A stretch of 64,000 bases of DNA from positions 4,340,001 through 4,404,000 of the forward strand of contig NZ_CP017279.1 of assembly GCF_001750725.1 (NCBI RefSeq). The letters are read 5' to 3'. Shown piece by piece: positions 1,578 to 19,974 of this stretch. The position numbers were made by a program, and so were the translations under genes. The stretch comes from Enterobacter ludwigii (GTDB lineage: Bacteria > Pseudomonadota > Gammaproteobacteria > Enterobacterales > Enterobacteriaceae). The notes beneath the pieces are model-generated. The model worked only from the letters and a program-made list of their open reading frames with translations, ran no database searches and had not been told where the DNA came from. Position 1 is the stretch's first letter, and each line of letters starts with the position of its first letter.

Positions 1578-1640
1578 CTAAGGCTGAATGCCCTGCATAG
1601 CGAAATCGAAAGATGCCATACGAACCATATGTACCGTCAT
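1578..1640 (-). CDS. Possible 20-codon ORF overlapping the cI stop
   Basis: An ATG at 1638-1640 overlaps the cI TGA by one base, as in translationally coupled pairs, and runs 20 codons to TAG at 1578-1580. In 186-like phages the integrase gene normally follows cI here. The peptide does not resemble the N-terminus of 186 integrase as I recall it, so this may be a chance ORF left at a deletion edge or a very small coupled gene. Confidence 0.2.
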   Translation of the reverse strand: MTVHMVRMASFDFAMQGIQP

Positions 1641-2215
1641 CAGTTCACCTCGCTGTAGATGCCCACCACACGGCCCAGTGTTTTTATCTCATCGATACCG
1701 CATTCAAAGGGAACTTTGCCGCCCGCGACGTGGAGTTTTTTCCCCGGCAGCAGGGTTAAATCACGAAGACTGGTGGTGCCTTCAATCTCAACCAGCCATA
1801 GCCCGTCGGTTAATGACGCCCCTTTTTCAACAAAGTGGAGCTTTGCCTCAGACCGGACTGCGATACCGCGAGTGAGCGGTTTGCTAAAGAGATGTGAATC
1901 GATACTCAAAGTGGAATTTTCTTCCAGTTGACCATCACTGAGAGTGAATGTGACAACCGCAACGGGATCGCCAGGCGCAGGGTTACCTTCAAACTGGGCA
2001 CCCTGTCCGGTCATCAACCAGCGCAGGCTGGCCCCTGTGTCCAGTGCACACTGTACCGCGAAGTCGTAGGAGATGGTGCCGCGCGCGTAGCGGTTCTGAA
2101 GGGAACTGGCGGCAATATTGAAGTGCCGGGCCAGCTGGATTTTTTGGGTAAAACCATATACCTGACAGATTCTATCGAGTAACTCTTCATTATTCACTTG
2201 AGAATCTAAAATCAA
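1640..2215 (-). CDS. cI: 186-type CI immunity repressor
   Basis: Represses the early and late-activator promoters of the element. The N-terminal third (L-D-R-I-C...Y-G-F-T-Q-K-I-Q-L...N-R-Y-A-R-G, then I-S-Y-D-F) is the bacteriophage CI helix-turn-helix domain of coliphage 186. The C-terminal half is an S24-like oligomerisation fold. 186 CI is not cleaved by RecA but is inactivated by Tum, which is also encoded here (5670-6110). The frame stays open to a TTG at 2248. I prefer the TTG at 2213-2215, because AAAGGA lies 7 bases upstream and the resulting N-terminus (M-I-L-D-S) lines up with that of 186 CI (M-R-I-D-S). Length 191 residues. It diverges from the early genes across a palindromic operator. 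Confidence 0.85.
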   Translation of the reverse strand: MILDSQVNNEELLDRICQVYGFTQKIQLARHFNIAASSLQNRYARGTISYDFAVQCALDTGASLRWLMTGQGAQFEGNPAPGDPVAVVTFTLSDGQLEENSTLSIDSHLFSKPLTRGIAVRSEAKLHFVEKGASLTDGLWLVEIEGTTSLRDLTLLPGKKLHVAGGKVPFECGIDEIKTLGRVVGIYSEVN

Positions 2216-2233
2216 AATATATTCCTTTGGGTA

Positions 2234-2262
2234 TTTACTAATACTCAATTGGGTATTAGTAT
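2234..2262. promoter_or_regulatory. Divergent early/cI promoters with class-1 palindromic operator
   Basis: Bases 2237-2260 form an almost perfect palindrome: arms ACTAATAC and GTATTAGT, centre AATT, one mismatched pair. A rightward promoter fits TTTACT (2234-2239), 17 bases, TAGTAT (2257-2262). A leftward promoter for cI fits TTGATA, 16 bases, TATTAG on the minus strand over the same DNA. Repressor bound here would cover both. The 18-base core (2240-2257) recurs with one difference as a perfect palindrome at 19273-19290. Confidence 0.6.
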
Positions 2263-2347
2263 CAATGCGAATTCGGGCAATCAGCGGCAGACGTTGGCAA
2301 ACAGAGGCTAATGATTGCAGACATTATCAAAATGGGAATCATGCAAC

Positions 2348-2440
2348 ATGGCTTCTGAAATCGCAATCATCAAAGTGCCAGCCCTGTCGTTAGGCTGGCG
2401 CAGTTCGCTGCGCTGGAAAGCGGCGTAACGCGTAGGCCAA
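2348..2440 (+). pseudogene. cox: Frameshifted, truncated cox (excisionase/switch regulator) remnant
   Basis: ATG at 2348 opens M-A-S-E-I-A-I-I-K-V-P-A, which matches the start of the regulatory phage Cox family as I remember it (SEIAIIKVPAP...L-Q-Q-F-A-x-L-E-G-V). After codon 12 the reading frame is lost and stops at 2426-2428, giving only 26 codons. In the next frame the sequence continues as V-V-R-L-A-Q-F-A-A-L-E-S-G-V-T-R-R before decaying, so one base has been lost near 2383. The HTH and C-terminal part are gone. Cox/Apl proteins direct excision and set the lysogeny switch, so their loss fits the missing integrase. An inverted repeat at 2377-2399 (GCCAGCC/GGCTGGC) lies within it. Confidence 0.55.
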
Positions 2441-2469
2441 TCCCGTTTTCAGCCCGTTACGGGTGAGTA

Positions 2470-2486
2470 ATTCACACAGTGTGAAT
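2470..2486. promoter_or_regulatory. Class-2 palindromic operator upstream of early operon
   Basis: ATTCACA-CAG-TGTGAAT is a 17-base inverted repeat ending 16 bases before the DUF5347 gene. The same arms recur as ATTCACA-AAT-TGTGAAT at 19742-19758, over the ogr promoter at the other end of the element. 186 CI is known to recognise two distinct operator types, so this may be the second type. That link is inference. Confidence 0.5.
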
Positions 2487-2502
2487 CAACGCGAGGGTCG
2501 TT

Positions 2503-2841: not shown

Positions 2842-2908
2842 TCCACCCCAAAACGTAATGGCGTAAACCCGCCGGGCATTTTATTGCCTGAATTAAGGAG
2901 AATGAGTG

Positions 2909-3136
2909 ATGCGAAATAGCGAAAACCGCACTTTTCTGAACGGGCGCGAGGAACTCCAGCACCTGCTGGTGCAGGCGAAGATGGAGGAGCGCAGGGCACT
3001 CGCACTCGCCGTCTCCCTGCGGCTGGAGGCATTAGCCAGTCACATCTATAAGACCGGAATGTGTGGCGAAGACGCAGCGGAACTGCTGTGTCACGAGGCT
3101 GCCCGTTACGAACGCGAATCCCAGGAGCTGCACTGA
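2909..3136 (+). CDS. Phage early protein, DUF2732 family
   Basis: A 75-residue, mainly helical protein with the pattern N-G-R-E-E-L-Q-H-L-L-x-x-A-K and ending Y-E-R-E-S-Q-E-L-H, typical of the DUF2732 proteins between cII/fil and gene A of 186-like phages. ATG at 2909 is preferred over GTG at 2906 because AAGGAG ends 8 bases before it. It overlaps the next gene by one base (TGATG). Function unknown; its retention suggests that the early operon is still transcribed. Confidence 0.75.
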   Translation: MRNSENRTFLNGREELQHLLVQAKMEERRALALAVSLRLEALASHIYKTGMCGEDAAELLCHEAARYERESQELH

Positions 3137-3357
3137 TGGCCGATTTTATCGATCTGGCGCAGGAGCGTGAGCTTGAAGATCGCGAACGTCATATTAATAG
3201 CGCCCGCCAGCGATGCGCATCGCCCTCGCGTTTTACCTGCGAGGAATGCGACATCCCCATCCCCGAGGCGCGGCGAAAGGCGTTACCTGGAGTGGCCTTA
3301 TGCGTCACCTGCCAGGAGATAACGGAGCTGAAAAACAAACATTTCCGGGGAGGATAA
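3136..3357 (+). CDS. TraR/DksA-type C4 zinc-finger protein
   Basis: A 73-residue protein whose C-terminal half carries a C-x2-C (C-E-E-C), 17 residues, then C-x2-C (C-V-T-C) zinc finger with the intervening I-P-E-A-R-R-K-A-L-P-G motif. This is the signature of TraR/DksA-like proteins, which act in the secondary channel of RNA polymerase. It is common in P2/186 early operons. The start ATG at 3136 overlaps the preceding TGA; the frame is open further upstream, but the coupled start is the natural one. Confidence 0.85.
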   Translation: MADFIDLAQERELEDRERHINSARQRCASPSRFTCEECDIPIPEARRKALPGVALCVTCQEITELKNKHFRGG

Positions 3358-3364
3358 GTTGGTG

Positions 3365-5560
3365 ATGTCATTTGCTTATCCGTGGAATGAACCCCGATCG
3401 GCTATTGCCAGCCCCTACCTGACTCACCCCCAATTACAGCGTCGCGACCGTCTGTTCGCGGCGCTGCGGCAAGCCAGAAAAGCGCTCGCTCTGCAGCCTG
3501 ACTGCGTGCGTTTTGACGTCTGGCGCACGGTTGATGCTCTTGAACTTCATCAGGGCAGCCTGCGAGCCAATGCCTTTTTGATTCGGTTCTGCAACAGGGT
3601 ATTACCACGTCTGCAGCAGGTCTCTGCACGGTATGCCTGTTCAGGTGTTGACCGTAACGTCTCCACCGCCGTTTTTGGTGGACACTTCGACACGCCGCTT
3701 TTGCAATATCTTGCATCGCGGATGGTTACGCTGATTGCCCGCTTCAATCGTCTCCCGGATATGTCCCGCGCCGATATTGATTTGCTGGCCGCTGACATCG
3801 CTGGCTTTATTCGTTCCGAGCTGGCGAATATCAATGACGCTGGCCTCGGCGAATTTCAAACCCTTCATGTCTGGTATCAGCGAGCTGGATTAATCACCCG
3901 CCAGTTCAATGTACTGCCTCCTCACTGGGAGCGCGTGTCGAAGATACTCTTTAACAAAGAGGACATTGCGCCAGCGGTGATCCGCATGTTTTCCGAAGAC
4001 TGGTGGCGTGGACGACTGCGTCGCATGGCGGCCGCCTGGCGTGAGCATGTGCAGATTGCACTTGGAAACGTCAGCAAAAAGAAGTCTGCCTATGCGAGTA
4101 AACGCTGCATCACTGACTGGCGTGAACAGAAGCGGCGCACGCGTGAATTTCTTAAAGGTCTGGAACTGGAGGATGAAGAGGGCAACCGTATAAGCCTGAT
4201 TGCCAGGCACGATGGCTCGGTGGCCAATCCCGCGATACGTCGCTGCGAACTGATGACCCGCATCCGCGGGTTTGAAAATATCTGCCATGAGCTTGGCTAT
4301 GTGGGCGAGTTCTATACCTTAACCGCGCCGTCGAAATATCACGCCACCCTGAACACCGGCTATCGTAACGGTAAATGGAACGGGGCGAGCCCTGCGGATA
4401 CACAAAGCTACCTGACAAAACTGTGGGCGCGGATCCGGGCAAAACTCCACCGGCAGGCGATTCGTCTGTTTGGCATCCGCGTTGCTGAACCCCACCATGA
4501 CGGTACGCCTCACTGGCACATGCTGATGTTCATGCTGCCCGAAAACGTTGAGCGCGTTCGCCGCATTATGGAGGAATACACACAGGAGGAAGACGCTTTT
4601 GAACTGCAAAGCGATAACGCCAGAAAAGCTCGCTTTCACGCTGAAGCTATAGACCCGCAAAAGGGCAGTGCCACCGGTTATATCGCTAAATACATCTCCA
4701 AGAATATCGACGGCTATGCCCTTGATGGCGAGACTGATAACGAAAGCGGCGAGTTGCTTAAAGTGACTGCATCTGCCGTTTCGGCCTGGGCGGCGCGCTG
4801 GCATATCCGTCAGTTTCAGTTTATCGGCGGTGCACCGGTGACCGTCTACCGTGAGCTGCGCCGTTTGACTGATACGCAGGCCGCACACGGTCTGAGCGTA
4901 GAATTTGCGGCAGCGCATGACGCCGCGGACGCCGGAGACTGGGCAGGATACGTCAATGCACAGGGAGGACCGTTTGTTCGTCGGGATGCGTTGCAGGTGC
5001 GCACGCTGTATGAGCCCCGTGCCGAATACAATCAGTACGGCGAAGAACGAGTCTGTATTCGCGGCGTTTACGACACCGCACTCGGCCCGGGCTCGCCGAT
5101 TTTGACCCGGCTCACGCAGTGGAAAATTGTGCCGAAGCGTGCCGTTGATTTGGCCGTTGACCTTAACGGCACCGCTGCGCGTTCTTGGAGTTCTGTCAAT
5201 AACTGTACGGTGAGCGACGTCTCTCAACCCCTCAGCCGCCGTGCGAGACGCGCGTTAGCCGCACGCATAACCCTCCCCAGACCGGTTGCAAAGACTCCCT
5301 TTGTCTATGAAAAGGATCCGCAGAACGGAGTGGCAGAGAGAGTGATTGATGAGATACGGCTCGCCACCGGAATAACGATCAGCCGGGGGGAAGCCCTGCA
5401 TCTTATGGCGGGGGGCATTAGCCGTTTTAACGACAAATGGTGCCGGGGATCTGCAGACGGATCGCTATTTCCTGCGGCACCGTCTTATCAGCAAAAGGCC
5501 CGGAAAATCCTTGAACGTATAAGGTATTTAACGCATCTGATAAGCAAAGGGATTCGCTAA
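3365..5560 (+). CDS. A: Replication initiation endonuclease gpA
   Basis: P2/186 gpA is a rolling-circle initiator that nicks the phage origin and stays joined to the 5' end by a tyrosine. Counting from the longest frame (TTG at 3359), the HUH metal motif (H-H-D-G-T-P-H-W-H) lies near residues 379-387 and the paired catalytic tyrosines (Y-I-A-K-Y) near 441-445. Both motifs are intact and the roughly 731-residue length is close to the P2 protein. Starts at TTG 3359, GTG 3362 or ATG 3365 are possible; GGGGAGGA at 3347-3354 serves the last two best. An intact replication gene is odd in an element with no capsid or packaging genes. P2 gpA also contains its own origin, so an origin may lie inside this gene. 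Confidence 0.9.
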   Translation: MSFAYPWNEPRSAIASPYLTHPQLQRRDRLFAALRQARKALALQPDCVRFDVWRTVDALELHQGSLRANAFLIRFCNRVLPRLQQVSARYACSGVDRNVSTAVFGGHFDTPLLQYLASRMVTLIARFNRLPDMSRADIDLLAADIAGFIRSELANINDAGLGEFQTLHVWYQRAGLITRQFNVLPPHWERVSKILFNKEDIAPAVIRMFSEDWWRGRLRRMAAAWREHVQIALGNVSKKKSAYASKRCITDWREQKRRTREFLKGLELEDEEGNRISLIARHDGSVANPAIRRCELMTRIRGFENICHELGYVGEFYTLTAPSKYHATLNTGYRNGKWNGASPADTQSYLTKLWARIRAKLHRQAIRLFGIRVAEPHHDGTPHWHMLMFMLPENVERVRRIMEEYTQEEDAFELQSDNARKARFHAEAIDPQKGSATGYIAKYISKNIDGYALDGETDNESGELLKVTASAVSAWAARWHIRQFQFIGGAPVTVYRELRRLTDTQAAHGLSVEFAAAHDAADAGDWAGYVNAQGGPFVRRDALQVRTLYEPRAEYNQYGEERVCIRGVYDTALGPGSPILTRLTQWKIVPKRAVDLAVDLNGTAARSWSSVNNCTVSDVSQPLSRRARRALAARITLPRPVAKTPFVYEKDPQNGVAERVIDEIRLATGITISRGEALHLMAGGISRFNDKWCRGSADGSLFPAAPSYQQKARKILERIRYLTHLISKGIR

Positions 5561-5631
5561 TCTTCATCGATATCATGTACATACCTCGCATGGTTCTGAT
5601 TTTTTGCTTCACTCTTTTTATGAATACATGC

Positions 5632-5651
5632 TACTGTATGTTTATACAGTA
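5632..5651. promoter_or_regulatory. LexA (SOS) box
   Basis: TACTGT-8 bases-ACAGTA, with the core CTGTATGTTTATACAG at 5634-5649. It fits the LexA consensus CTGT-N8-ACAG fully, with an AT-rich centre and symmetric TA flanks. It sits 18 bases upstream of the GTG start of tum, where bound LexA would block transcription. Confidence 0.9.
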
Positions 5652-5669
5652 TCTCGTGGTGGAGGTTGT

Positions 5670-6110
5670 GTGGACAGAGAGTTGAACGAGCAAGTCATGA
5701 TTGAACGCGTCGAGATGATTGCGCGGCTGACGACAGAAGGAACGTGTCAGGAAAGAGATCGTGAAATTGCCCTGAATTTGATCGCTGAGATTGCGAGAGG
5801 AAATTTAATCAGGAACAACGCGTTTACCGTGGTTTTCTCGGCATCACCCGTTCCGGACAGAATCAAAAAAGAGGCCAGCGTGCGGGTGAACATTACCCTG
5901 GATAAGGATCAGCTTATTGGTCCGTCCGTCGTGGAGGCGTTTCAGGACGAATTAACCCGCAGGATAAGATCCGTGTTTCCGTCAACGCTGGTTACCGTCA
6001 AAAAAGGATCCATGACCGGCGTGGAGTTGCAGGGGATTGAAAGAGAGGCCGATCGCGAAGCGCTGGACAATATCCTCCGGGAAGTCTGGGAAGACGAGAG
6101 CTGGCGCTAG
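5670..6110 (+). CDS. tum: Tum-type antirepressor with DinI-like domain
   Basis: From GTG at 5670 (GGAGG at 5661-5665) the protein is 146 residues, the length I recall for 186 Tum. The C-terminal half (V-R-V-N-I-T-L-D...F-Q-D-E-L-T-R-R-I-R-S-V-F-P through I-L-R-E-V-W-E-D-E) is a DinI-like domain. The N-terminal half (M-I-E-R-V-E-M-I-A-R-L-T, then R-D-R-E-I-A-L) is the phage-specific part. In 186, Tum is made when LexA is cleaved and removes CI from DNA, causing induction. The perfect LexA box just upstream gives the same logic. The frame is open upstream to 5604, but those codons cover the LexA operator. A simple DinI-like RecA modulator is the alternative reading. Confidence 0.75.
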   Translation: MDRELNEQVMIERVEMIARLTTEGTCQERDREIALNLIAEIARGNLIRNNAFTVVFSASPVPDRIKKEASVRVNITLDKDQLIGPSVVEAFQDELTRRIRSVFPSTLVTVKKGSMTGVELQGIEREADREALDNILREVWEDESWR

Positions 6111-6233
6111 GCCCTCTGCCATCTCGCGGGCAGTCTGTTGTGTCCGCGATTGTCCATCCTGCAGCAATAGCAAAAAGGGCGCCAGCGCTGGAAACTCAAC
6201 GGTACCTGGAAATCCGGATGTTGGGAGCGTCTG
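6111..6233 (+). promoter_or_regulatory. Junction replacing head genes, with candidate late promoter
   Basis: In P2 and 186 the six head/packaging genes lie immediately before X. Here only 123 bases separate tum from X. Bases 6137-6156 read GTTGT, 8 bases, TTGTCCA. This fits the activator consensus GTTGT-N8-TNANCCA that I recall for 186 B protein, with one mismatch. A site centred near -55 would put the start of transcription near 6200, just before X. The same pattern occurs before FI (13315-13334). No head-gene fragment is recognisable. Confidence 0.5.
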
Positions 6234-6437
6234 ATGAAAATCTATGCAATGCAGGGGGACACGCTTGATGCCATCTGTGCCCGTTATTATGGGCGCACGG
6301 CAGGGGTGGTTGAAACCGTTCTGAACGCCAATTCTGGCCTCGCGGAGTTGGGGGTCATCTTACCTCATGGCACGCCGATAGACATGCCAGAGGTTGATAG
6401 CGCACCGACTAAAGAATCAGTGAACCTATGGGACTGA
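6234..6437 (+). CDS. X: Tail protein X
   Basis: A 67-residue LysM-like protein (Y-A-M-Q-G-D-T-L-D-A-I-C-x-R-Y-Y-G) equivalent to P2 gpX, needed for tail assembly and thought to act near the tail hub. GGGAG lies just upstream of the ATG. It is the first gene of the tail/lysis operon here and overlaps the holin start. Its neighbour on the left should be head-completion gene L, which is absent. Confidence 0.9.
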   Translation: MKIYAMQGDTLDAICARYYGRTAGVVETVLNANSGLAELGVILPHGTPIDMPEVDSAPTKESVNLWD

Positions 6438-6649
6438 GTCTTGAGAAAATCACCACGTTTATCGCCTACTGGCTGGCCGTAGCGCTGGCCTGGTTCGGGG
6501 CGATGTCTCCTGAAAAAGTCGCGCTATACGTGGGAAGCCTCTGCGCCATTTTTACCGCGCTGACGAATTACTGGTTTAAGCGGAAAACCTATCGCTATCT
6601 GACCTCTCTTGGACTCGATAAGAAGAGTATTCGTGAACTCAATCATTAA
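6428..6649 (+). CDS. Phage holin
   Basis: A 73-residue membrane protein with two hydrophobic segments (about residues 9-28 and 32-50) and a basic tail (K-R-K-T-Y-R-Y-L), of the HP1/P2-like holin type. Holins permeabilise or depolarise the inner membrane and so activate the SAR endolysin encoded next. The start overlaps the X stop by 10 bases and the end overlaps the lysozyme start, giving a tightly coupled cassette. Confidence 0.8.
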   Translation: MGLSLEKITTFIAYWLAVALAWFGAMSPEKVALYVGSLCAIFTALTNYWFKRKTYRYLTSLGLDKKSIRELNH

Positions 6650-7142
6650 GCGTTGCAGTGCCGCGGGCGTACTGGCCCTGGCGGTGCTGATGCCTGACTT
6701 CCGGTTACTGAACATCTCACCGGAGGGGTTGGCGCTCATTGCTGATCTCGAAGGGTGTCGCCTGTCGCCTTATCGTTGCAGTGCGGGCGTATGGACATCA
6801 GGCATTGGCCATACGTCAGGCGTCGTGCCGGGACGGGAAATTACGGAGCGTGAGGCGGCAGAGAACCTTGTTGCCGACGTGATGAACGTTGAAAGACGGC
6901 TGGCGGTATGCGCACCGGTGGAGATGCCACCCCGTGTCTATGATGCGCTGGTGAGTTTTGCCTTTAACGTTGGAACAGGGGCTGCCTGCCGTTCCACGCT
7001 GGTGTCATTCATAAAGCGTAAACAGTGGCCGCAGGCGTGCAATCAGCTTACCCGCTGGGTGTACGTCAATGGGGTCAAAAATGCCGGACTGGAAAACCGT
7101 CGAGCTCGTGAGAAGGCCTGGTGCCTGAAGGGGATGCCATGA
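6633..7142 (+). CDS. SAR endolysin, glycoside hydrolase 24 lysozyme (gpK-like)
   Basis: Cleaves peptidoglycan to release the particles. From GTG at 6633 (AAGAAGAG upstream) the protein is 169 residues. Its weakly hydrophobic N-terminus, rich in Ala, Val and Leu (about residues 8-22), looks like a signal-anchor-release segment. The GH24 triad follows the E-8-(D/C)-5-T spacing: Glu40, Cys49, Thr55, so cysteine takes the usual aspartate place, a known variant. The I-G-H-T motif is intact. It overlaps the holin at the 5' end and lysB at the 3' end (ATGA). Confidence 0.88.
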   Translation: MNSIIKRCSAAGVLALAVLMPDFRLLNISPEGLALIADLEGCRLSPYRCSAGVWTSGIGHTSGVVPGREITEREAAENLVADVMNVERRLAVCAPVEMPPRVYDALVSFAFNVGTGAACRSTLVSFIKRKQWPQACNQLTRWVYVNGVKNAGLENRRAREKAWCLKGMP

Positions 7143-7552
7143 AACCTCTCCTGCTGGTACTGGCTGTTCTGCTGGCCATCACGCTGTGGTTTCGTCATGA
7201 CAACGTGAACCTGTCCCGCTCTCTTGCTAAAGCCAACCAGATCGCCCGCGATCAAAAAAACACTATCAACACGCTGCTTCAGCAGTTATCCGAAGCACAG
7301 CGGATTGCCAGGTCGAACGAAGATGCGCAGGTCAGGCTCCGCGAGGATCTTGCTGCCGTCGGCGAGGAGATGGCACGACGCGAAGCGGCTATCGGGAAAT
7401 GGGTAAATGAAAATGAAGAGTTACGCCGCTGGTATAACGCTCAGCTGCCTGATGCTGTGCGCAGGTTGCACACCCGCGCCGCCTGCGCCTCCGCAGCACA
7501 TTGTTTACAACGCCTGCCCGAAGGTGAGCGCCTGTCCGATGCCGGGCAGTGA
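7139..7552 (+). CDS. lysB: LysB/Rz-type inner-membrane spanin
   Basis: A 137-residue protein with one N-terminal membrane anchor (L-L-L-V-L-A-V-L-L-A-I-T-L-W) followed by a long coiled coil rich in Ala, Gln and Glu. This is the standard design of i-spanins, which join an outer-membrane lipoprotein to fuse the envelopes at the end of lysis. ATG at 7139 overlaps the endolysin stop. The lysC frame is embedded in its 3' half. Confidence 0.85.
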   Translation: MKPLLLVLAVLLAITLWFRHDNVNLSRSLAKANQIARDQKNTINTLLQQLSEAQRIARSNEDAQVRLREDLAAVGEEMARREAAIGKWVNENEELRRWYNAQLPDAVRRLHTRAACASAAHCLQRLPEGERLSDAGQ

Positions 7553-7697
7553 GCCCATCACCAACGGCGATCTCAGTGCTGATATTCGTCGGCTTGAGCA
7601 TGCCCTTATCGCCTGCGCGCTGCAGGTCGAAACCATAAAAGACTGTCAGGATAAACTCGATGCACAAACTCAACAGCCTGCGTCAGGCATTAATTGA
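7407..7697 (+). CDS. lysC: LysC/Rz1-type outer-membrane spanin lipoprotein
   Basis: A 96-residue protein in another frame, starting inside lysB. The signal sequence ends in the lipobox L-C-A-G-C, followed by a proline-rich stretch (T-P-A-P-P-A-P-P), the classic Rz1 pattern. It would be lipidated at that cysteine, placed in the outer membrane and pair with LysB. It overlaps gene R at its 3' end. The overlapping arrangement is conserved in P2-like phages. Confidence 0.85.
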   Translation: MKMKSYAAGITLSCLMLCAGCTPAPPAPPQHIVYNACPKVSACPMPGSEPITNGDLSADIRRLEHALIACALQVETIKDCQDKLDAQTQQPASGIN

Positions 7698-8127
7698 CGC
7701 CGTTCCTCAACTGAACGCTCACCCTGATCATCTGCAGATGTCGGTGGGGAGCGGAAATATTGACGCCCGCCTCGCGTCCTCGCTCTCCTTTGAAAAAAAG
7801 TATGAACTGAAAGCGAATATCAGTAGCTTCGCCGGCGACAGCGAGGGGGTCTTCGTCCCGGTACTCGCCTGGCTGCGTGATAACCAGCCAGATATTTTTA
7901 CCCTCGATGACGGGCGAAAAAACGGGTTTCTCTTTGGCGTCACCATCAACGACGATGGTACGGCGAATATCAGCTTTAGCCTGCAGCTCACCGAGCGCAT
8001 TCTTGTTTCGCAGGAGCAGGGAACGTTGCATGCCACCTATTCCCCGGAGCCGCCGTTACCAGAGCCCGTCACACGTCCGCTGGAGCTGTACATCAACGGT
8101 GAACTGGTCAGTCAGTGGAAAGCGTAA
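7660..8127 (+). CDS. R: Tail completion protein R
   Basis: A 155-residue homologue of P2 gpR, required for finishing the tail. Matches to the P2 protein as I recall it include S-L-R-x-A-L-x-D-A-V at the start, A-S-L-S-F-E-K-x-Y near 40, V-P-V-L-A-W-L-R-x-N-Q-P-D-I near 70 and the C-terminal P-V-T-R-P-x-E-L-Y-I-N-G-E-L-V-S. In P2 gene S follows directly; here the next gene is V, so S has been lost. Confidence 0.9.
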   Translation: MHKLNSLRQALIDAVPQLNAHPDHLQMSVGSGNIDARLASSLSFEKKYELKANISSFAGDSEGVFVPVLAWLRDNQPDIFTLDDGRKNGFLFGVTINDDGTANISFSLQLTERILVSQEQGTLHATYSPEPPLPEPVTRPLELYINGELVSQWKA

Positions 8128-8166
8128 GTTCACCGCGCTGATGGCTGTCCAGCCATCAGCGTGAAC
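8128..8166 (+). terminator. Strong hairpin after R, with possible late promoter half-site
   Basis: GTTCAC (8128-8133) pairs with GTGAAC (8161-8166), and inside it GCTGATGGCT pairs with AGCCATCAGC around a four-base loop. Only a short T-rich run follows, so it may be a terminator or an RNA-stability element. GTTGT at 8171-8175 matches the left half of the late-activator consensus, but the right half is poor. This occupies the place where gene S would be. Confidence 0.5.
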
Positions 8167-8236
8167 GATTGTTGTTTCATCCCGCATAAAACCCCGTCTC
8201 GTTGCTGCCGATCCCCCTGAAGGGCATTCTCTTCTC

Positions 8237-8878
8237 ATGAATACACTCACTTCCATGCACGGTATCGCTCGCGCGATCCGTAACCTGATTCGTATCGGTG
8301 TTGTCACCGATGTTGACCTCAACAGAGGGCTCTGCCGCGTCCAGTCCGGAGGGATGAAAACCACCTGGCTGAACTGGCTGACCTGTCGCGCCGGCCGTTC
8401 GCGCGTGTGGTGGGCACCGTCCGAGGGAGAACAAGTGCTGCTGCTGGCCATCGGCGGTGAGCTTGATACCGCCTTCGTGCTGCCAGGTATCTTTTCCGAT
8501 GACCACCCGGCGCCGTCAGGTTCCCCTGACGCACTCCACGTCTCGTTCCCTGATGGGGCAGTTATCGAGTACGAGCCCGGGAGCGGAGCACTCATGGCCG
8601 CAGGCATTAAAACGGCTGACATCACAGCCTCTGAATCACTCACCGCCACCGTACCGGTGGTCCTGGTGAAGTCTGAGACGCGCATCACCCTGGATACACC
8701 TGAGGTGGTGTGTACCAACAAGCTAATTACCGCCTCTCTTGAAGTGCAGAAGGGCGGGGTAATGGCCGGCAATATTGAGCATTCCGGCGGTAAATTCACC
8801 TCCAATGGGGTGCAGGTGGACAACCATGCTCACGGCAGTGTGCAAAGCGGCGGAAGCTGGACTAAGGGGACGCAATGA
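8237..8878 (+). CDS. V: Baseplate spike protein V
   Basis: A 213-residue homologue of P2 gpV, the trimeric membrane-piercing spike at the tip of the contractile tail. An OB-fold region (about 10-95, R-V-Q-S-G-G-M...W-W-A-P-S-E-G-E-Q-V) is followed by a beta-helix. The C-terminal H-A-H motif (residues about 197-199) matches the iron-binding H-x-H of the P2 spike tip. ATG at 8237 gives M-N-T-L, as in P2. It overlaps W by ATGA. Confidence 0.93.
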   Translation: MNTLTSMHGIARAIRNLIRIGVVTDVDLNRGLCRVQSGGMKTTWLNWLTCRAGRSRVWWAPSEGEQVLLLAIGGELDTAFVLPGIFSDDHPAPSGSPDALHVSFPDGAVIEYEPGSGALMAAGIKTADITASESLTATVPVVLVKSETRITLDTPEVVCTNKLITASLEVQKGGVMAGNIEHSGGKFTSNGVQVDNHAHGSVQSGGSWTKGTQ

Positions 8879-12857: not shown

Positions 12858-12858
12858 T

Positions 12859-13314: not shown

Positions 13315-13334
13315 GTTGTGTAATCCTTTCTCCA
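13315..13334 (+). promoter_or_regulatory. Candidate Ogr/B-dependent late promoter for FI operon
   Basis: GTTGT (13315-13319), 8 bases, TTCTCCA (13328-13334) fits the recalled 186 B-protein consensus GTTGT-N8-TNANCCA with one mismatch and closely resembles the site at 6137-6156 before X. A -10-like CAATAG near 13371 lies at the expected distance. FI begins at 13406. Confidence 0.55.
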
Positions 13335-13405
13335 ACCCCAATACGTCGCATCAATCGTGCGCTCCACAGACAATAGCCTCACCACTAAACGAAGGAGTTA
13401 AACGG

Positions 13406-14593
13406 ATGGGCGACTATCATCACGGCGTGGAAGTCATCGAAATCAACGATGGCACCCGCACCATTTCTACCGTCTCGACGGCAATCATCGGCATGGTCTG
13501 TACGGCCAGCGATGCGGACGACAAGACATTTCCTTTAAACGAGCCTGTGCTCATTACCAACGTGCAAACCGCGATTGCGAAAGCCGGGAAAATGGGGACG
13601 TTGTCCGCTTCCCTGCAGGCGATTGCCGATCAGTGTAAACCGGTTGTTGTTGTCGTGCGTGTCGCTGAAGGCACCGCTGATACCGCTGAGGAAGCACAGA
13701 AAGAGACTATCTCTAATATCATCGGTACAACCGATGAAAACGGTAAATATACCGGTCTGAAAGCGCTCCTTACCGCGAAAACGGTCACTGGCGTTAAGCC
13801 ACGTATTCTCGGTGTTCCGGGGCTGGATTCGCAGGAAGTGGCGACCGCGCTGGCCGCCATGTGCCAGAGCCTGCGCGCGTTTGGCTATGTCAGTGCATGG
13901 GGTTGTAAAACCATTTCAGCCGCTATCGATTACCGCAAAAACTTCAGTCAGCGCGAGTTGATGGTAATTCACCCTGATTTTCTGGCGTGGGATACCACCA
14001 CCAACACGACGACCCACGCCTGGGCCACTGCACGTGCTCTCGGCCTGCGCGCCAAAATCGACCAGACGATTGGCTGGCACAAAACCCTGTCCAACATCGG
14101 CGTTAACGGTGTCACAGGTGTAAGCGCCTCCGTGTCCTGGGATCTGCAGGAACAAGCGACCGATGCGAACCTGCTTAACCAGGCCGGCGTCACCACGCTT
14201 ATTCGTAACGACGGCTTCAAATTCTGGGGCAACCGTACCTGTTCAGACGATCCGCTCTTCGTCTTTGAAAACTACACCCGTACCGCGCAGGTGTTGGCCG
14301 ATACCATGGCCGAAGCACACGCATGGGCAATGGATAAACCCATTACGCCAACGCTCATCCGCGACATCGTTTCCGGTATCAATGCCAAATTCCGTGAGCT
14401 GAAAACCAACGGCTATATCGTTGATGGCACTTGCTGGTATGACCCGGAATCAAATGATGCATCGACCCTGAAAGCAGGGAAATTGTACATCGATTACGAC
14501 TACACCCCTGTCCCGCCGCTGGAGAACCTGACCCTGCGCCAGCGCATCACCGATACCTATCTGGCAGATCTGTCCGATTCGGTTAACAGCTAA
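13406..14593 (+). CDS. FI: Contractile tail sheath protein FI
   Basis: A 395-residue homologue of P2 gpFI, the sheath subunit that contracts and drives the tube through the target envelope. It shows the family features Y-H-H-G-V-E-V-I-E near the start, T-A-I-I-G-M-V-C-T near 30 and a C-terminal W-Y-D-P and L-R-Q-R-I-T-D-T-Y region. ATG at 13406 has AAGGAG upstream and gives the P2 length; the frame is open further upstream but covers the terminator and promoter. It begins the last late operon, FI to D. Confidence 0.95.
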   Translation: MGDYHHGVEVIEINDGTRTISTVSTAIIGMVCTASDADDKTFPLNEPVLITNVQTAIAKAGKMGTLSASLQAIADQCKPVVVVVRVAEGTADTAEEAQKETISNIIGTTDENGKYTGLKALLTAKTVTGVKPRILGVPGLDSQEVATALAAMCQSLRAFGYVSAWGCKTISAAIDYRKNFSQRELMVIHPDFLAWDTTTNTTTHAWATARALGLRAKIDQTIGWHKTLSNIGVNGVTGVSASVSWDLQEQATDANLLNQAGVTTLIRNDGFKFWGNRTCSDDPLFVFENYTRTAQVLADTMAEAHAWAMDKPITPTLIRDIVSGINAKFRELKTNGYIVDGTCWYDPESNDASTLKAGKLYIDYDYTPVPPLENLTLRQRITDTYLADLSDSVNS

Positions 14594-14604
14594 GGAGCTG
14601 AAGC

Positions 14605-15123
14605 ATGGCGTTACCACGCAAACTTAAATATCTGAACATGTTCAACGATGGCCTGAGTTATATGGGCGTTGTTGAGTCTGTCACCTTACCGAAGCTCACC
14701 CGCAAACTGGAGAAGTATCGCGGCGGCGGTATGCCGGGCTCGGTCTCTGTCGACCTCGGCCTGGACGATGATGCCCTGGCGCTTGAGTGGACCATTGGCG
14801 GTCTGCCGGACGTCGCGCTGTGGGCACAGTATGCCTCTCCGGGCGCGGACAGCGTGCCTCTGCGCTTTACCGGCTCCTTCCAGCGTGACGACACGGGCGA
14901 AATCTCCGCCGTCGAAATCGTCATGCGAGGCCGTCATAAAGAGTTTGATGGTGGTGAAAACAAGCAGGGCGAGAGCGGCACCACCAAGATGTCCACCGAG
15001 TGCGCTTACTACCAACTGACCATCGATGGCAAAGAGATCATCGAAATTGACATCATCAACATGGTGCTGAAAGTCGACGGCGTCGATCGTCTGGCGGAAC
15101 ACCGTAAGGCGATTGGCCTGTAA
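14605..15123 (+). CDS. FII: Tail tube protein FII
   Basis: A 172-residue homologue of P2 gpFII, the inner tube subunit, the same length as in P2. Features are M-A-L-P-R-K-L-K at the start, G-G-G-M-P-G-S-V near 48 and R-G-R-H-K-E-F-D-G-G near 115. AAGGAG lies before the ATG. Tube and sheath both being intact is the core requirement for a working R-type particle. Confidence 0.95.
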   Translation: MALPRKLKYLNMFNDGLSYMGVVESVTLPKLTRKLEKYRGGGMPGSVSVDLGLDDDALALEWTIGGLPDVALWAQYASPGADSVPLRFTGSFQRDDTGEISAVEIVMRGRHKEFDGGENKQGESGTTKMSTECAYYQLTIDGKEIIEIDIINMVLKVDGVDRLAEHRKAIGL

Positions 15124-15130
15124 ACCTTTA

Positions 15131-15153: not shown

Positions 15154-15179
15154 AAGTTAACTTTCTGAAGAGTAACGAA

Positions 15180-15488
15180 ATGGAAAATATCAACGAGACC
15201 GTCATTAACGAAAGCGAAAACCCGAACACCATTACGCTCGATACCCCCGTTCTGCGCGGCGAGCAAAAAATCGAAAAGGTGACCGTCGCAAAACCCAACG
15301 CGGGGACCCTGCGTGGGGTATCGCTGGCGTCGCTGGCACAATCTGACGTCGATGCGCTGATTAAAGTGCTGCCGCGAATGACCTCTCCGGCCCTGACCGA
15401 GCATGAGATTGCGCGTCTGGATGCTTCCGATCTGCTCTCTTTTGCGGGCAAGGTGATCGGTTTTTTGTCACCGGCTTCGGCTCGCTAA
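15180..15488 (+). CDS. E: Tail assembly protein E
   Basis: A 102-residue homologue of P2 gpE, a tape-measure chaperone. It shows L-D-T-P-V-L-R-G-E near residue 20, K-P-N-A-G-T-L-R-G-V-S near 39 and the C-terminal A-G-K-V-I-G-F-L-S-P. It carries a T-TTT-TTG slippery site at 15461-15467 near its 3' end, from which the longer E+E' product is made. Confidence 0.9.
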   Translation: MENINETVINESENPNTITLDTPVLRGEQKIEKVTVAKPNAGTLRGVSLASLAQSDVDALIKVLPRMTSPALTEHEIARLDASDLLSFAGKVIGFLSPASAR

Positions 15489-15640
15489 CATTTCCCGAAA
15501 ACCTGTCGGTCGATGATCTGATGGCGGATATCGCGGTGATCTTTCACTGGCCGCCGTCAGAGCTGTACTCGCTGAGCATGACCGAACTCCTTATATGGCG
15601 CGAAAAGGCGCTGCAGCGAAGCGGAAACTACCATGAGTAA
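15180..15640 (+). CDS. E': Tail assembly protein E+E' (programmed -1 frameshift product)
   Basis: Slipping back one base at T-TTT-TTG (15461-15467) lets ribosomes read through as F-V-T-G-F-G-S-L and on to F-H-W-P-P-S-E-L...W-R-E-K-A-L and a TAA at 15638-15640. The same heptamer is used in P2 E/E', and analogous shifts (lambda G/GT) are conserved in tailed phages, where the ratio of short to long chaperone matters for tail assembly. The extension ends over the T start (15633). The shift is inferred, not shown. Confidence 0.8.
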
Positions 15641-18080
15641 TAATGTCAGACTTCAGGAGTTGCTTAAGGCAGTCGACCGGGCAAGCCGACCGCTTAACGC
15701 TATCCAGAACGCCAGTCTCTCTCTCGCGGCCAGTATCCGCGATTCTGAGGCGGCGTTGCGCGCGCTTGATGAACAGGCGGGCCGCATTAACGGCTTCAGA
15801 AAAGCCAACGAACAGCTCGCCGTGACGGGGCAGTCTCTTGCCCGGGCGAAACAGCAGACCGCGGCACTGGCGCTCCAGCTCAAAAACACCCAGAACCCAA
15901 CCCGTGACCAGGCGGATGCGCTGGCGGCAGCCCGCCAATCTGCCGCCGCGCTTAAGCTTGAGTACAACAATTTACGCCAGTCGGTGCAGCGCCAGCGCGG
16001 TGAGCTGGCGCAGGCAGGGATTAATACGCGCACGCTGTCGTCAGATGAGCGTCGTTTAAGACAGGGTATCAGCGAAAAAACGCTACAACTAAATCGACAT
16101 AAAGAGGCGCTTGCCAGGGTCAATCAGCAACAGGAGCGGCTTAATACCGTTCAGAACCGCTACGAGTCTGGCAAACGTGTTGCCGCGGGTGTGCAGCAGT
16201 TTGCTAATGTGAGCGCAGGAATGGCAAAGGCGGGCTTTAATCAGACGTCCCGCTTTATTGCCCCGGGAATCCGTTTTGAAAAGCAGATGTCTGCCATACA
16301 GGCAAGCCTGGGTCTGCAGAAGGGGGATACCAGGCTGGAGGCCATTCGCCAGCAGGCACGGGATGTCAGCGTCAGTACAGGAACCTCTACAGATGTTGTC
16401 ACCCGGGCGCAGGGCGAGCTGGCCCGATCAGGCTATGACGCCGACGGGGTGGTGGCCGCCACTGTGCCGACGGTCAACCTCAGCCTCGCTGGGAATATTG
16501 ATGCCGCCAAAGCGGTCGACATCATCCGCAGCACGCAGGCCTCGTTTAACCTGGCGAATACGGATGTTGAACGCGTTGCAGATGTCCTTACCCGCGGTTT
16601 CACTGCGTCAAATACCAGTCTCACCGAACTGAGTACCGCCGTTGCATCCGCCGCACCTGCCGCCGGAGAAGCCGGCGCCAGCCTTGAGGAGACCACCGCG
16701 CTGCTTGGTATTCTGATGGAAAAGGGGATGAAAGGGGCAGATGCCGGCGCAGAGGTTAGCGCCATGTTGAGCCGCCTGCAGACGCCGGATGGGCAGCGTT
16801 CTGCAGCGCTGAATGAACTGAAGGTGCAAACCCGGGATGGCGAGGGTAATCCACTGCCGACAGAGAATATCCTCAAGGCGATCTCTGCCTCATTCGAAAA
16901 CAGCAAAATCGGTGCGGCTCAACAAACTGAATACCTGAAGGCCATTTTCGGTACGGATGCGATGCAAGGCGCAGGCGTACTGGTTTCAGCGGCTGGGAAT
17001 GGAACGCTGGATAACAAGCGCCAGACACTCCAGGGCGCGAGGGGGAGCACCGCGCTGACAGCCTCGGTTCAGGGCGATAACCTCGAGGGTGATATCAGCA
17101 AGTTCCAGGCTGCATTAAACGGCCTGAAGATTGATGTCTTTGATAAGGCCGATGGTGCCCTACGCACGCTGATCTCAACCGCGACCGGATGGCTTAGTAC
17201 GCTCTCTCTCTGGGTCAACGCTAACCCTGCACTGACGCAAGCCCTGGTCAGCGTGGTTATGGGCGCACAAGCCTTTGCCGGTGTCCTGGGCACGCTAGGT
17301 ATGGTGGTCGCCCCCATTGTGTCAGGCCTGAATCTGGTGATAACCGCTGCCGGGATGCTGGGCACGGTATTCAGCGTAGTGGGGGGGAGCATCATGACGG
17401 TGCTGGGCGCCCTGAGCTGGCCCGTTATTGCTCTCGGAGCGGCAATTGCCGCCGGCGCTTTACTGATTCTTAAATACTGGGAGCCCATTAGCGCCTTCTT
17501 TGGCGGGGTGATTGAGGGGCTTTCTGCGGCCTTCGCGCCGCTGGGCGAGCTGTTCTCTCCGCTGTTACAGGCCTTTGGTTTCATTTCAGAAAAACTGGGC
17601 GGGATCTGGCAGTGGTTCATCGATCTGATTGCGCCGATTAAGGCGACGCAGGAAACGCTCGACAGCTGCAAAAATGTCGGCGTGGCGTTCGGTCAGGCGC
17701 TGGGAGATGCGCTAATGGCGCCGCTAAATCTCTTTAACAGCCTGCGCGGCAAGGCCAGCTGGCTGCTGGAGAAACTCGGCGTCATAAAAAGAGAGTCGGG
17801 CAATATCGACTCGGCTGTACCGAAAGAAGGCACCTCCTCTGCTGACGCCGGCAGTGCCTGGGACCCGGCGTCACCTGTTTACAGCGGCTTCATGGGATAC
17901 CAGCCGATGGCAGCAGCGGGAGGACGTTCTTACATCGATCAGAGTAAAAGTGAATACAACTTCACGCTGCAGGGGAGCGCAGCCTCCGGAACGGATCTGA
18001 CTCGTCAAATCCGGGAGGCTATAGAGAGCAGTGAGCAGGAAAAAGCGAGACGGCAGCAATCCAGCTTTATGTATGGTTAA
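15633..18080 (+). CDS. T: Tail tape measure protein T
   Basis: An 815-residue tape measure, the length I recall for P2 gpT, so a tail of P2 length is predicted. The first 200 residues are coiled coil rich in Ala, Gln, Arg and Leu. A phage tail tape-measure region follows (about 225-450). Hydrophobic, Gly/Ala-rich segments lie near 530-620 and are thought to enter the target membrane. The frame is intact over its whole length. Confidence 0.93.
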   Translation: MSNNVRLQELLKAVDRASRPLNAIQNASLSLAASIRDSEAALRALDEQAGRINGFRKANEQLAVTGQSLARAKQQTAALALQLKNTQNPTRDQADALAAARQSAAALKLEYNNLRQSVQRQRGELAQAGINTRTLSSDERRLRQGISEKTLQLNRHKEALARVNQQQERLNTVQNRYESGKRVAAGVQQFANVSAGMAKAGFNQTSRFIAPGIRFEKQMSAIQASLGLQKGDTRLEAIRQQARDVSVSTGTSTDVVTRAQGELARSGYDADGVVAATVPTVNLSLAGNIDAAKAVDIIRSTQASFNLANTDVERVADVLTRGFTASNTSLTELSTAVASAAPAAGEAGASLEETTALLGILMEKGMKGADAGAEVSAMLSRLQTPDGQRSAALNELKVQTRDGEGNPLPTENILKAISASFENSKIGAAQQTEYLKAIFGTDAMQGAGVLVSAAGNGTLDNKRQTLQGARGSTALTASVQGDNLEGDISKFQAALNGLKIDVFDKADGALRTLISTATGWLSTLSLWVNANPALTQALVSVVMGAQAFAGVLGTLGMVVAPIVSGLNLVITAAGMLGTVFSVVGGSIMTVLGALSWPVIALGAAIAAGALLILKYWEPISAFFGGVIEGLSAAFAPLGELFSPLLQAFGFISEKLGGIWQWFIDLIAPIKATQETLDSCKNVGVAFGQALGDALMAPLNLFNSLRGKASWLLEKLGVIKRESGNIDSAVPKEGTSSADAGSAWDPASPVYSGFMGYQPMAAAGGRSYIDQSKSEYNFTLQGSAASGTDLTRQIREAIESSEQEKARRQQSSFMYG

Positions 18081-18091
18081 GGAGAGAGAAA

Positions 18092-18556
18092 ATGTTAATG
18101 GTGCTGGGTCTGTTTGTCTTTGAACGACGAACCTTACCGTATCAGTCAATGGTATTTACAAAAGACTACCGCTGGGCATCCAACGAACGCATCGGGAAAC
18201 CCAAAGCCTGGCAGTACCTTGGCGAAGGTGAGACATCCTTTAACCTTTCCGGATTACTTTACCCGGAGCTCACGGGAGGGCGGCTTTCTCTCAAGGCGGT
18301 TGAGCTGATGGCGAATGAAGGGCGGGCATGGCCGTTGATAGACGGTACCGGCATCATTCACGGCATGTTTATCATTGAGAAAGTCACGCATACGCATTCG
18401 GATTTTTACAGCGATGGCACTGCCCGGAAAATTGATTTTACCCTGGTACTGAAACGCGTGGATGAATCGCTGATGACGACGTTTGGCGACCTGAGAACGC
18501 AGGCCTCAGAGCTGGTGGAAAGCGCACGTAATAGCATTGGAGGGCTGGTGGGATGA
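18092..18556 (+). CDS. U: Tail protein U
   Basis: A 154-residue homologue of P2 gpU, a tail terminator/assembly protein. It shows M-L-x-x-L-G-L-F-V-F at the start, Q-Y-L-G-E-G near 45, L-S-G-L-Y-P-E near 57 and F-x-I-E-K-V near 103. GGAGAG precedes the start and it overlaps D by 4 bases (ATGA). Its retention makes sense in a headless particle because something must cap the tail. Confidence 0.9.
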   Translation: MLMVLGLFVFERRTLPYQSMVFTKDYRWASNERIGKPKAWQYLGEGETSFNLSGLLYPELTGGRLSLKAVELMANEGRAWPLIDGTGIIHGMFIIEKVTHTHSDFYSDGTARKIDFTLVLKRVDESLMTTFGDLRTQASELVESARNSIGGLVG

Positions 18557-19707
18557 TCACCGAAATGAATATCCGGGCAGGTGGGAAAATCGCCCCTGAT
18601 TTTATGCTTAAGCTTGACGAGCGCGATATCACGCAAAATTTCAGCCATCGTCTTATCAGTTTGACCATGACCGACAAACGTGGGCTGGAAGCCGATCAGC
18701 TGGATATTCTACTGGATGATTCCGACGGGTTGTTAGACCTGCCTGCCCGGGGGGCAAGACTGTCCTTATGGCTGGGATGGGAAGGAACACCGCTCCAGCC
18801 GAAAGGGGACTTTACGATAGATGCGATTGAATTCCGGGGCACGCCGGACACGCTGACCATCCGAGGATGCAGCGCCGATTTTCGTGGGAAGCTCAACGTG
18901 CGGCGCGAACAGTCGTGGCATGACACGACGATCGGCGCGATAGTCAACACCATTGCTCAGCGTAACCGGTTTACCGCCAGCGTCGGGGCGGGACTTGCAT
19001 CCATCGCCATTTCTCATATCGATCAGTCTCAGGAGACTGACGCGGCGTTTCTCTCCCGCCTGGCCGAACGTAATGGTGCATTTGTTTCAATCAAAGCCGG
19101 GAAGGTTATTTTTATGAAAGCGGGCCATGCCGTGACGGCCAGTGGCACACCGCTTCCCTTAATGATGATTGAGCGTGGAGATGGCGATCGGCACCTTTTT
19201 TCCGTCGCTGACCGTGAAAATTATTCCGGCGTGACGGCCAAATGGCTGCAAACGCGTGACCCAAAACAACAAAATACTCAATTGAGTATTGCTCGTCAGC
19301 CCGGGGGGCAGCCGACAGAAGGACTACAGCACCCGGATGCCGCTACACCGGTAGCGGGAGCAGGAGGCAAGGCAGAGAAGCCGCAAGAGAGGCTGGTGGG
19401 ATCGGCGGAAAACGTTTTTGAGCTCACCACGGTTTATGCCTCTCAAGAGCAGGCGCTCAGGGCTGCAGAGGCGAAGTGGCGCGCGCTTCAGCGGGGTACC
19501 GTGAATTTTTCTATCCAGCTGGCGCTGGGACGCGCCGATCTGTATCCCGAAACGCCGGTGCTGGTCAACGGCTTTAAACGGGTCATTGACGAGCAGGCGT
19601 GGATTATCAACGAGGTGGTTCATACTCTCAGCGAGAGTGGATTTACCACGCAACTTAAGCTTGAGCTGAACGTCGCCGATGAAAAATTTTCTATCGAAAA
19701 TGAGTAA
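18553..19707 (+). CDS. D: Tail protein D (baseplate hub)
   Basis: A 384-residue homologue of P2 gpD, the hub of the baseplate (gp27-like), holding the spike. Features are the F-S-H-R-L-I-S-L-T-M-T-D-K-R-G near residues 31-46, D-Q-L-D-I-x-L-D-D near 51 and E-T-D-A-A-F-L-x-R-L-A near 160. The gene also contains the perfect class-1 palindrome (19273-19290), encoding N-T-Q-L-S-I, which suggests a regulatory site laid over coding sequence. Confidence 0.92.
   Translation: MITEMNIRAGGKIAPDFMLKLDERDITQNFSHRLISLTMTDKRGLEADQLDILLDDSDGLLDLPARGARLSLWLGWEGTPLQPKGDFTIDAIEFRGTPDTLTIRGCSADFRGKLNVRREQSWHDTTIGAIVNTIAQRNRFTASVGAGLASIAISHIDQSQETDAAFLSRLAERNGAFVSIKAGKVIFMKAGHAVTASGTPLPLMMIERGDGDRHLFSVADRENYSGVTAKWLQTRDPKQQNTQLSIARQPGGQPTEGLQHPDAATPVAGAGGKAEKPQERLVGSAENVFELTTVYASQEQALRAAEAKWRALQRGTVNFSIQLALGRADLYPETPVLVNGFKRVIDEQAWIINEVVHTLSESGFTTQLKLELNVADEKFSIENE
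19273..19290. promoter_or_regulatory. Class-1 palindrome inside D
   Basis: AATACTCAATTGAGTATT is a perfect 18-base palindrome. It differs by one base from the core of the cI/early operator at 2240-2257. It lies about 470 bases upstream of the ogr promoter. It may be an auxiliary repressor site, as 186 CI uses distant flanking sites. Confidence 0.5.
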
Positions 19708-19712
19708 TGTAT

Positions 19713-19759
19713 TTGCTATTGAGTTCTTTTCGGGTATTATAATTCACAAATTGTGAATT
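19713..19759 (+). promoter_or_regulatory. ogr promoter with class-2 palindromic operator
   Basis: A TATAAT box (19738-19743) follows TTGCTA (19713-19718) at 19 bases; TATTAT (19735-19740) would give 16. AATTCACAA-A-TTGTGAATT (19741-19759), a perfect 9-base inverted repeat, overlaps the -10 and the expected start point, where a bound repressor would block transcription. In 186, CI represses the equivalent pB promoter. Confidence 0.65.
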
Positions 19760-19773
19760 ACGTGGAGGGGTAC

Positions 19774-19974
19774 ATGTTTCATTGTCCTAAGTGCAAGCAT
19801 TCCGCGCATGCGCGTACCAGTCGCTATTTAAGTGAAAATACCAAAGAGCGCTATCACCAGTGCACCAATGTGGACTGCAGCTGTACGTTCGTGACGATGG
19901 AGTCCGTGGAGCGTCTGATTGCGACACCTGGCGCCGCTGAGCGTGTCCGAACGGCTTCGCAGACCCATGGTTAG
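19774..19974 (+). CDS. ogr: Late transcription activator Ogr/B (zinc finger)
   Basis: A 66-residue homologue of P2 Ogr and 186 B. It begins M-F-H-C-P-K-C, and C-x2-C plus C-x4-C (C-T-N-V-D-C) give the single zinc site, with A-H-A-R-T-S-R-Y and T-K-E-R-Y-H-Q-C as the family core. It switches on the late tail and lysis promoters. ATG at 19774 has GGAGGGG upstream. It is the last gene of the element, as in P2, about 80 bases from the ileX tRNA. Confidence 0.93.
   Translation: MFHCPKCKHSAHARTSRYLSENTKERYHQCTNVDCSCTFVTMESVERLIATPGAAERVRTASQTHG

Follow-up and report, generated by a model that had tools for sequence, protein, structure and literature searches.

R-type tailocins derived from P2-like phages are an already known kind of element. 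The xenorhabdicin locus of Xenorhabdus nematophila, xnp1, is described as lacking capsid, portal and terminase genes, with GpA and GpW up after mitomycin C, in a paper whose introduction presents it as devoid of replication genes (PMC8855722). Dickeyocin P2D1 of Dickeya dadantii 3937 is described as a bactericidal, P2-derived R-type particle observed in mitomycin-induced cultures and encoded by a 22-kb cluster without O, M, N and L (PMC10719855), and PMC10598620 names kosakonicin, the R-type tailocin of Kosakonia radicincitans, which is closely related to Enterobacter. Here we analysed a 64,000-nucleotide stretch of Enterobacter ludwigii (contig NZ_CP017279.1, positions 4,340,001 to 4,404,000; hereafter the window), in which positions 1640 to 19974 hold a P2/186-type element with a repressor, replication gene A, DinI/Tum, lysis and tail operons and Ogr. 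We consider it very likely, with a probability of about 0.87, that this locus is a chromosomal, SOS-inducible R-type tailocin that descends from a 186-like prophage and is largely vertically inherited. The locus appears to be new for Enterobacter: no description of an Enterobacter tailocin locus was found in the open-licence literature, among the matches listed, and in PMC10531557 and PMC10457828 the word tailocin occurs with Enterobacter or Citrobacter in a reference only. An important opportunistic genus would thereby be credited with a probable killing particle of narrow spectrum, whose fibre occurs in natural variants across 15 species.

The preliminary description of this DNA had already pointed to P2-derived tailocins such as xenorhabdicin, and this comparison proved apt. 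A search for V matched 30 of 30 Xenorhabdus genomes, and among 11 loci examined from 10 genomes, 10 were headless (without head genes before X) and one was headed. In one genome the P2-like loci lie at ~1.06 Mb (headless) and ~3.04 Mb (headed), which are the published coordinates of xnp1 and xnp2 (PMC8855722), so the former is very likely the xenorhabdicin locus. Over the stretch compared, which ends before the sheath (the sheath lies outside in 5 of the 10 Xenorhabdus headless loci), it shares with the window a P2-type plan of CI, a DUF5347 gene, A with the origin motif, a LexA box, DinI and X, the order V-W-J-I-H, a DinI-X junction without head genes, and the absence of gpS. It differs in a head loss that is independent on the tree, in having no gpR match and no TGTTGTG before X, in a DinI gene broken by a stop, and in small open reading frames between X and V that are assigned to lysis by position only. 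Dickeyocin P2D1, which we liken to the window by its published description, differs in that its authors report no tape-measure match (PMC10719855). The 186-like phages, such as Salmonella phage BIS20 (Eganvirus), match the window in gene order, in CI/DinI control and in both origin motif and late-promoter element, but carry Q, P, O, N, M, L, S and an integrase. Two further parallels were dropped: the E. coli ST131 "tailocin", for which the authors report likely capsid genes (PMC9205054), and enterocoliticin, which is described as resembling phage Mu tails (PMC13030884).

A P2/186-type element without head genes

The element comprises 25 assigned frames, all of them open, and its lysis and tail operons follow the P2 gene order. 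The preliminary description had listed the tail, baseplate, spike, fibre and chaperone, tape measure, lysis cassette, late activator and repressor as intact, and Q, P, O, N, M, L, gpS and integrase as absent. Both lists held: every named module was found, open and assigned through PHROGs or Pfam, and with BIS20 and Wphi as yardstick phages (head proteins of both, integrase of BIS20) tblastn at E 1e-6 detected none of the missing genes in the window. The junctions are correspondingly short, ~125 bp (base pairs) between DinI and X and ~110 bp between R and V. Head genes elsewhere in the genome, which might have supplied particles, were also looked for: a whole-genome profile search matched neither PF05125 (P2 capsid) nor PF04860 (portal), the two head families searched, and the genome holds a single Ogr gene.

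The packaging site appears to be gone as well. The P2 cos 19-mer finds nothing better in the window than a match with 5 mismatches, compared with 1-3 in four headed prophages, and in 13 of 15 headless loci of the genus nothing better than 4; the matches of 2 and 3 mismatches in the other two (L075, L076) fall inside ogr. This search used one P2 cos sequence as query, and the headed phage BIS20 itself shows 6 mismatches, so that the control is imperfect. Of what a functional P2/186 prophage needs, neither the genes for head and packaging nor cos nor an integrase was found, nor was the helper packaging site expected of a P4- or PICI-like satellite, as no cos-like site lies outside the ogr coding sequence by this one query, for which BIS20 lacks a good match too. 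A replicating satellite that builds tails of its own but relies on helper P2-like phages for heads and packaging would fit the retention of A and its origin motif, an open integrase in one related locus, and the headed P2-like prophages that occupy the same site in relatives. Against it stand the missing cos-like site, with the reservation about BIS20, and core genes that track the host (see below), and we regard a satellite as extremely unlikely.

Distribution, inheritance and selection

Of 61 species genomes in the genus, 15 have the headless plan, the window included, so that it is no chance arrangement of one genome. The 14 others came from a search for the junctions, which could overlook more diverged ones: 25 of the 61 genomes gave some match, and the 16 candidates examined comprised 14 headless loci and two (G016, G042) that proved to be headed prophages at the same site. 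A scan of genome contigs for the sheath gave 38 loci, seven of which (L002, L003, L005, L006, L008, L010 and L016; five Enterobacter, two Lelliottia) are headless with the S-less order and window-like DinI-X and R-V junctions; in Pluralibacter gergoviae, L019 is without S and without a head gene in the 0.5 kb before X, where the contig ends. Among 295 family genomes the junction search matched 40 (two of them of this genus), and the five best candidates by spacing or score were three headless (L088, L089, L090) and two headed loci (L091, L092). Matches in E. coli genomes (5378 of 5426) and phage records (208 of 50,697) were partial, none spanning 80% of the query. L088 (4.7-8.0 kb), from another genus, is less reduced, retaining L along with a 13% stub of P, and appears to be an intermediate stage of reduction.

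Phylogenies of tail proteins separate the genus loci from other headless elements. In a tree of eight tail proteins the 15 loci form one clade (support 100) against 24 loci labelled headed, two of which (L009, L027) have no head region in the DNA compared and two (L014, L022) only S. A ten-protein tree of 44 rows again recovers the genus headless clade (100/100), places the other headless loci elsewhere, and implies four changes between headless and headed states, at least three of them forced by starred branches; a tree with the ten Xenorhabdus headless loci and six of the 15 genus loci implies six changes, at least five forced. Because regain of a head is unlikely, these changes indicate that head loss happened repeatedly, while within the genus clade the trees point to a single ancestral loss of the head and packaging block together with gpS.

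Divergence of most genes follows that of the host. Against host dnaG, the one host reference used, Mantel r across the 15 loci is 0.84-0.93 for A, DinI, K, R, V, FI, FII, E, T, U, D and ogr, compared with 0.55 for W, 0.14 for J and -0.08 for I; H and G were outside this comparison. Without the two deepest loci (L074, L085), r drops to 0.51-0.86 for the core genes (p 0.0005-0.031), and significance is not reached for W, J or I. The fibre itself is conserved at its N-terminus (160 amino acids, median 87.5) and hypervariable at its C-terminus, where 118 of 210 ordered pairs of the last 200 amino acids had no hit and none was above 80. The locus thus appears largely vertically inherited, with the fibre-side cassette exchanged, and the proposal that genomes would share the locus with conserved tail genes and variable fibres was confirmed. 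Four headless loci (L078, L079, L081, L090) carry a serine invertase of the resolvase family between the fibre and sheath genes, and in the two examined, L079 (9194-12813) and L081, inverted repeats of 27-28 bases flank the fibre segment. Such loci probably have phase-variable tailocin fibres and may switch target range. Carotovoricin Er likewise shows fibre-gene inversion, according to a reference title in PMC10598620, and differs in its ancestry, as judged from a published sheath identity of 34% between dickeyocin and carotovoricin (PMC10719855).

The integrase is found at several stages of loss. Among 13 of the 15 genus loci examined for integrase, L124 has an open full-length match, three matches are broken (L126 by an internal stop, L132 into two frames, L128 into pieces), and nine loci gave none, namely the window, four judged through their flanks and four through a repressor-to-flanking-gene spacing of ~0.3 kb in the coordinates. 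Of 40 non-carrier genomes with both flanking genes on one contig, eight have an interval below 6 kb, hence an empty or nearly empty site. In L134 (G049) and L133 (G008), other integrase-bearing elements lie between the Ogr end of the tailocin and the mug/dnaG side, one of them with P2-like capsid and portal, so the site is still invaded. Entry of other elements into this interval, together with a conserved CI repressor (median dN/dS, the ratio of nonsynonymous to synonymous divergence, 0.09), would suit a locus kept for immunity, in which CI repression or occupation of the site excludes P2/186-like phages and the tail genes are passengers. Such a role would leave unexplained both the constraint on sheath, tube and spike and the hypervariable fibre tips, and its chances are in our estimate minimal.

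Loss of exactly the head module had been taken in the preliminary description as a mark of selection for a tail-only bacteriocin, as opposed to random decay, and the related loci agree. Tail genes are full length in the 15 headless loci with few exceptions (the scoring left out fibre H, whose length varies, and chaperone G, for which the query had a wrong start), and are not broken as neutral decay predicts. By the Nei-Gojobori method the median dN/dS lies far below 1, from 0.03 (FII) to 0.33 (lysB) by gene, within the limits set by recombination and dS saturation. For sheath, tube and spike it is 0.058, 0.031 and 0.070 in headless loci against 0.128, 0.124 and 0.173 in headed prophages (pairs with 0.1<dS<1). 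These values argue that the genes of the headless element are under purifying selection. Tail genes have a mean dS (0.46-1.04 by gene) similar to that of host mug (0.59, 9 loci), and the locus is therefore old. Length exceptions are A (651 amino acids in L072, 681 in L085), W (98) and lysC (86) in L085, and a T of 737 amino acids with an in-frame gap in L074, where the small early gene o2906 was not found; the early genes and A of L075, and C of L085, are cut by contig or stretch ends.

Several observations weigh against a selected tailocin. Carriers lie scattered over the dnaG tree, which places 31 of the 61 genomes and requires at least six changes, and loss or transfer must therefore be common. 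Frame breaks affect D in L077 and also W, J and I in L079; compared with headed loci, constraint is a little weaker on T, D, U, R, A and DinI, the headed baseline for A and DinI being 6 and 3 pairs; gpS, a tail-completion protein, is absent from headless loci; and no TGTTGTG occurs in the 150 bp before X in the ten Xenorhabdus headless loci. The breaks in L079 are clustered at 7341-9110 in one genome and reflect either real baseplate loss or assembly errors. A decaying defective prophage without function, whose head genes happened to go first, could account for these frame breaks and for integrases at successive stages of loss. It does not explain why 15 species keep the same tail set at dN/dS well below 1 in a locus as old as its dS indicates, nor why the open E' frame, the LexA box and the promoter spacing are all kept, and we consider it very improbable.

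Predicted SOS control and the retained replication-origin motif

In addition to its tail genes, the locus keeps a CI repressor, a LexA-boxed DinI gene and Ogr. A LexA box, CTGTATGTTTATACAG (5634 to 5649, of the form CTGTN8ACAG), stands 36 bp before the gene for a DinI-domain protein at the position of 186 Tum (5670 to 6110; PF06183, 8e-16; phrog_189, 1e-70), the expected SOS antirepressor; here and below, features are on the plus strand unless noted. The box has the same spacing in 15 of 15 loci, where it is the sole CTGTN8ACAG of each stretch, and it also lies beside the DinI start in L088-L090, so that the earlier suggestion of SOS induction finds support in the sequence. The repressor on the minus strand (1640 to 2248; Phage_CI_repr and Phage_CI_C, PF07022 4.5e-22 and PF16452 1.9e-19) has no adjoining integrase.

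Loss of the late promoter along with the head was considered and rejected for the genus clade. The head-operon late-promoter element TGTTGTG lies 95-107 bp before O in six headed loci, and in each of the 15 headless loci it stands 94-98 bp ahead of X; two headed loci checked have none before X. In the window it is retained as TGTTGTGTCCGCGATTGTCC (6136 to 6155), 98 bp before X, where BIS20 has its copy 99 bp before O. As the element keeps its old spacing, the excision of the head genes ran from close to the beginning of O up to the beginning of X, which appears to have left the lysis genes and first tail genes under the former head-operon element. TGTTGTG was not found within 150 bp before X in L088; L089 has TGTTGTT at -140 and L090 has TGTTGTG at -146. 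Putative Ogr sites, each with one mismatch to TGT-N12-ACA, which we assume to be the consensus, precede V (8172 to 8189) and FI (13316 to 13333).

The preliminary description, which reasoned from a tail-only bacteriocin, passes over A, its origin motif and the DinI gene with its LexA box; with these, the element is not tail-only. The replication initiator A (3365 to 5560; PF05840, 1.9e-123), a rolling-circle nickase with the motifs GTPHWH and YIAKYISKN, is under constraint. Its GTPHWH-type and paired-tyrosine motifs are kept in the 14 loci that have that part of A, with small variants in L072 and L074. Across 14 loci the most synonymously constrained patch of A is codons 593-617, in which 9 of 10 amino-acid-invariant codons are identical, compared with 17% overall (p ~1e-6 before sliding-window correction). 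This patch holds the P2/186 replication-origin motif GCGTTCTTGGAGTTCTGTCAATAAC (5179 to 5203), whose 17-base core GGAGTYCTGTCAWTAAC is common to Wphi, BIS20, 4 of 4 further headed loci and 15 of 15 headless loci, and which we take to be the P2 nick site. L088 keeps A and the motif, A is also present in L089 and L090 but the exact motif is missing there, and 9 of 10 Xenorhabdus headless loci have both. The tenth, L142, is the sole one without either and amounts to a natural deletion.

A replication gene and origin motif kept by unpackageable elements in two bacterial families form an unexpected pattern, and nothing joining tailocin with rolling circle was found in the open-licence literature. 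Since the origin is kept without a packaging site, in-place amplification is suggested, that is, an increase in copy number of the tail operon; late transcription in P2 depends on replication. We hypothesize, at about even odds, that P2/186 tailocins are replicating weapons, in which A and the rolling-circle origin are selected because SOS induction multiplies the tail operon within the chromosome ahead of Ogr-driven late transcription, and, as a companion proposal, that gpS serves head-tail joining.

The companion proposal arises because S is absent from all 19 headless Enterobacteriaceae loci, in at least three lineages, while the terminator R is kept in all 19. In the window gpR (7660 to 8127; phrog_65), the tail terminator or completion protein, is separated from V by 109 bp and lacks its phage follower gpS. 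R and V are separated by 74-247 bp in the 19 headless loci against at least 510 bp in all 25 measurable headed loci, and no match to S in headless loci was better than E 0.3; two weak pieces between R and V of L088 (17 and 20 amino acids, E 0.5-0.8) may be a remnant of S. In the Xenorhabdus headless loci gpR was likewise not found. That the head and gpS are missing together is relevant to what this classical P2 gene does.

By analogy with 186 and P2 biology, DNA damage would remove LexA and let DinI/Tum inactivate CI, upon which the early genes and Ogr would be expressed. Less surely, A would nick the kept origin and amplify the locus before late transcription. Ogr would then fire the retained head-operon promoter before X and the promoters of V and FI, contractile tails would assemble with R as terminator, and holin, endolysin and spanins would release them to puncture related bacteria, with the fibre picking the target.

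Remaining features of the element and its surroundings

The early region further encodes a DUF5347 protein (2503 to 2841; PF17282, 6.3e-31; phrog_602), a small protein (2906 to 3136; phrog_128) and a DksA-like zinc-finger protein (3136 to 3357; phrog_54, 7.3e-28). After the baseplate hub gpX (6234 to 6437; phrog_46) comes a lysis cassette of the element's own, assigned through PHROGs, with the holin Y (6428 to 6649; phrog_20), the endolysin K (6609 to 7142; phrog_7) and the spanins LysB (7121 to 7552; phrog_89) and LysC (7407 to 7697; phrog_952/456), the start codons of K and LysB being uncertain. The baseplate genes encode the spike gpV (8237 to 8878; phrog_6142/11), the wedge gpW (8875 to 9225; phrog_43), gpJ (9231 to 10139; phrog_4226/6) and gpI (10132 to 10662; phrog_48), and lead to the fibre gpH (10674 to 12857; PF12571, PF03406, PF21446, PF21882), with its conserved N-terminus and variable C-terminus, and its chaperone gpG (12859 to 13281; PF02413, 1.1e-39).

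The sheath gpFI (13397 to 14593; phrog_23, 3e-153) and tail tube gpFII (14605 to 15123; phrog_55) follow; several starts in the six-frame list of open reading frames were too early, and we adopted 13397 for FI and 12859 for G. At 15180 to 15640 gpE is encoded together with a -1 frameshift product, E+E', at a slippery TTTTTTG (15461-15467); the E' frame is open in 15 of 15 headless genus loci, with TTTTTTG in 14 and TTTTTTA in L085. The operon continues with the tape measure gpT of 815 amino acids (15633 to 18080; phrog_28), gpU (18092 to 18556; phrog_76) and the baseplate hub gpD (18553 to 19707; phrog_52), and is followed by the late activator Ogr/Delta (19753 to 19974; PF04606, 3.5e-21; phrog_603). 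This end adjoins mug, rpoD and a tRNA(CAU) gene on the minus strand (20056 to 20131), which lies at the border; ARAGORN calls it tRNA-Met(CAU), and from the anticodon and the mug/rpoD neighbours we presume it to be ileX. Farther along the window, a gene resembling the urease alpha subunit (28534-30237, minus strand) has on its antisense strand an Rfam match to the 5' ureB small RNA family (29808-30085), which possibly reflects just coding conservation.

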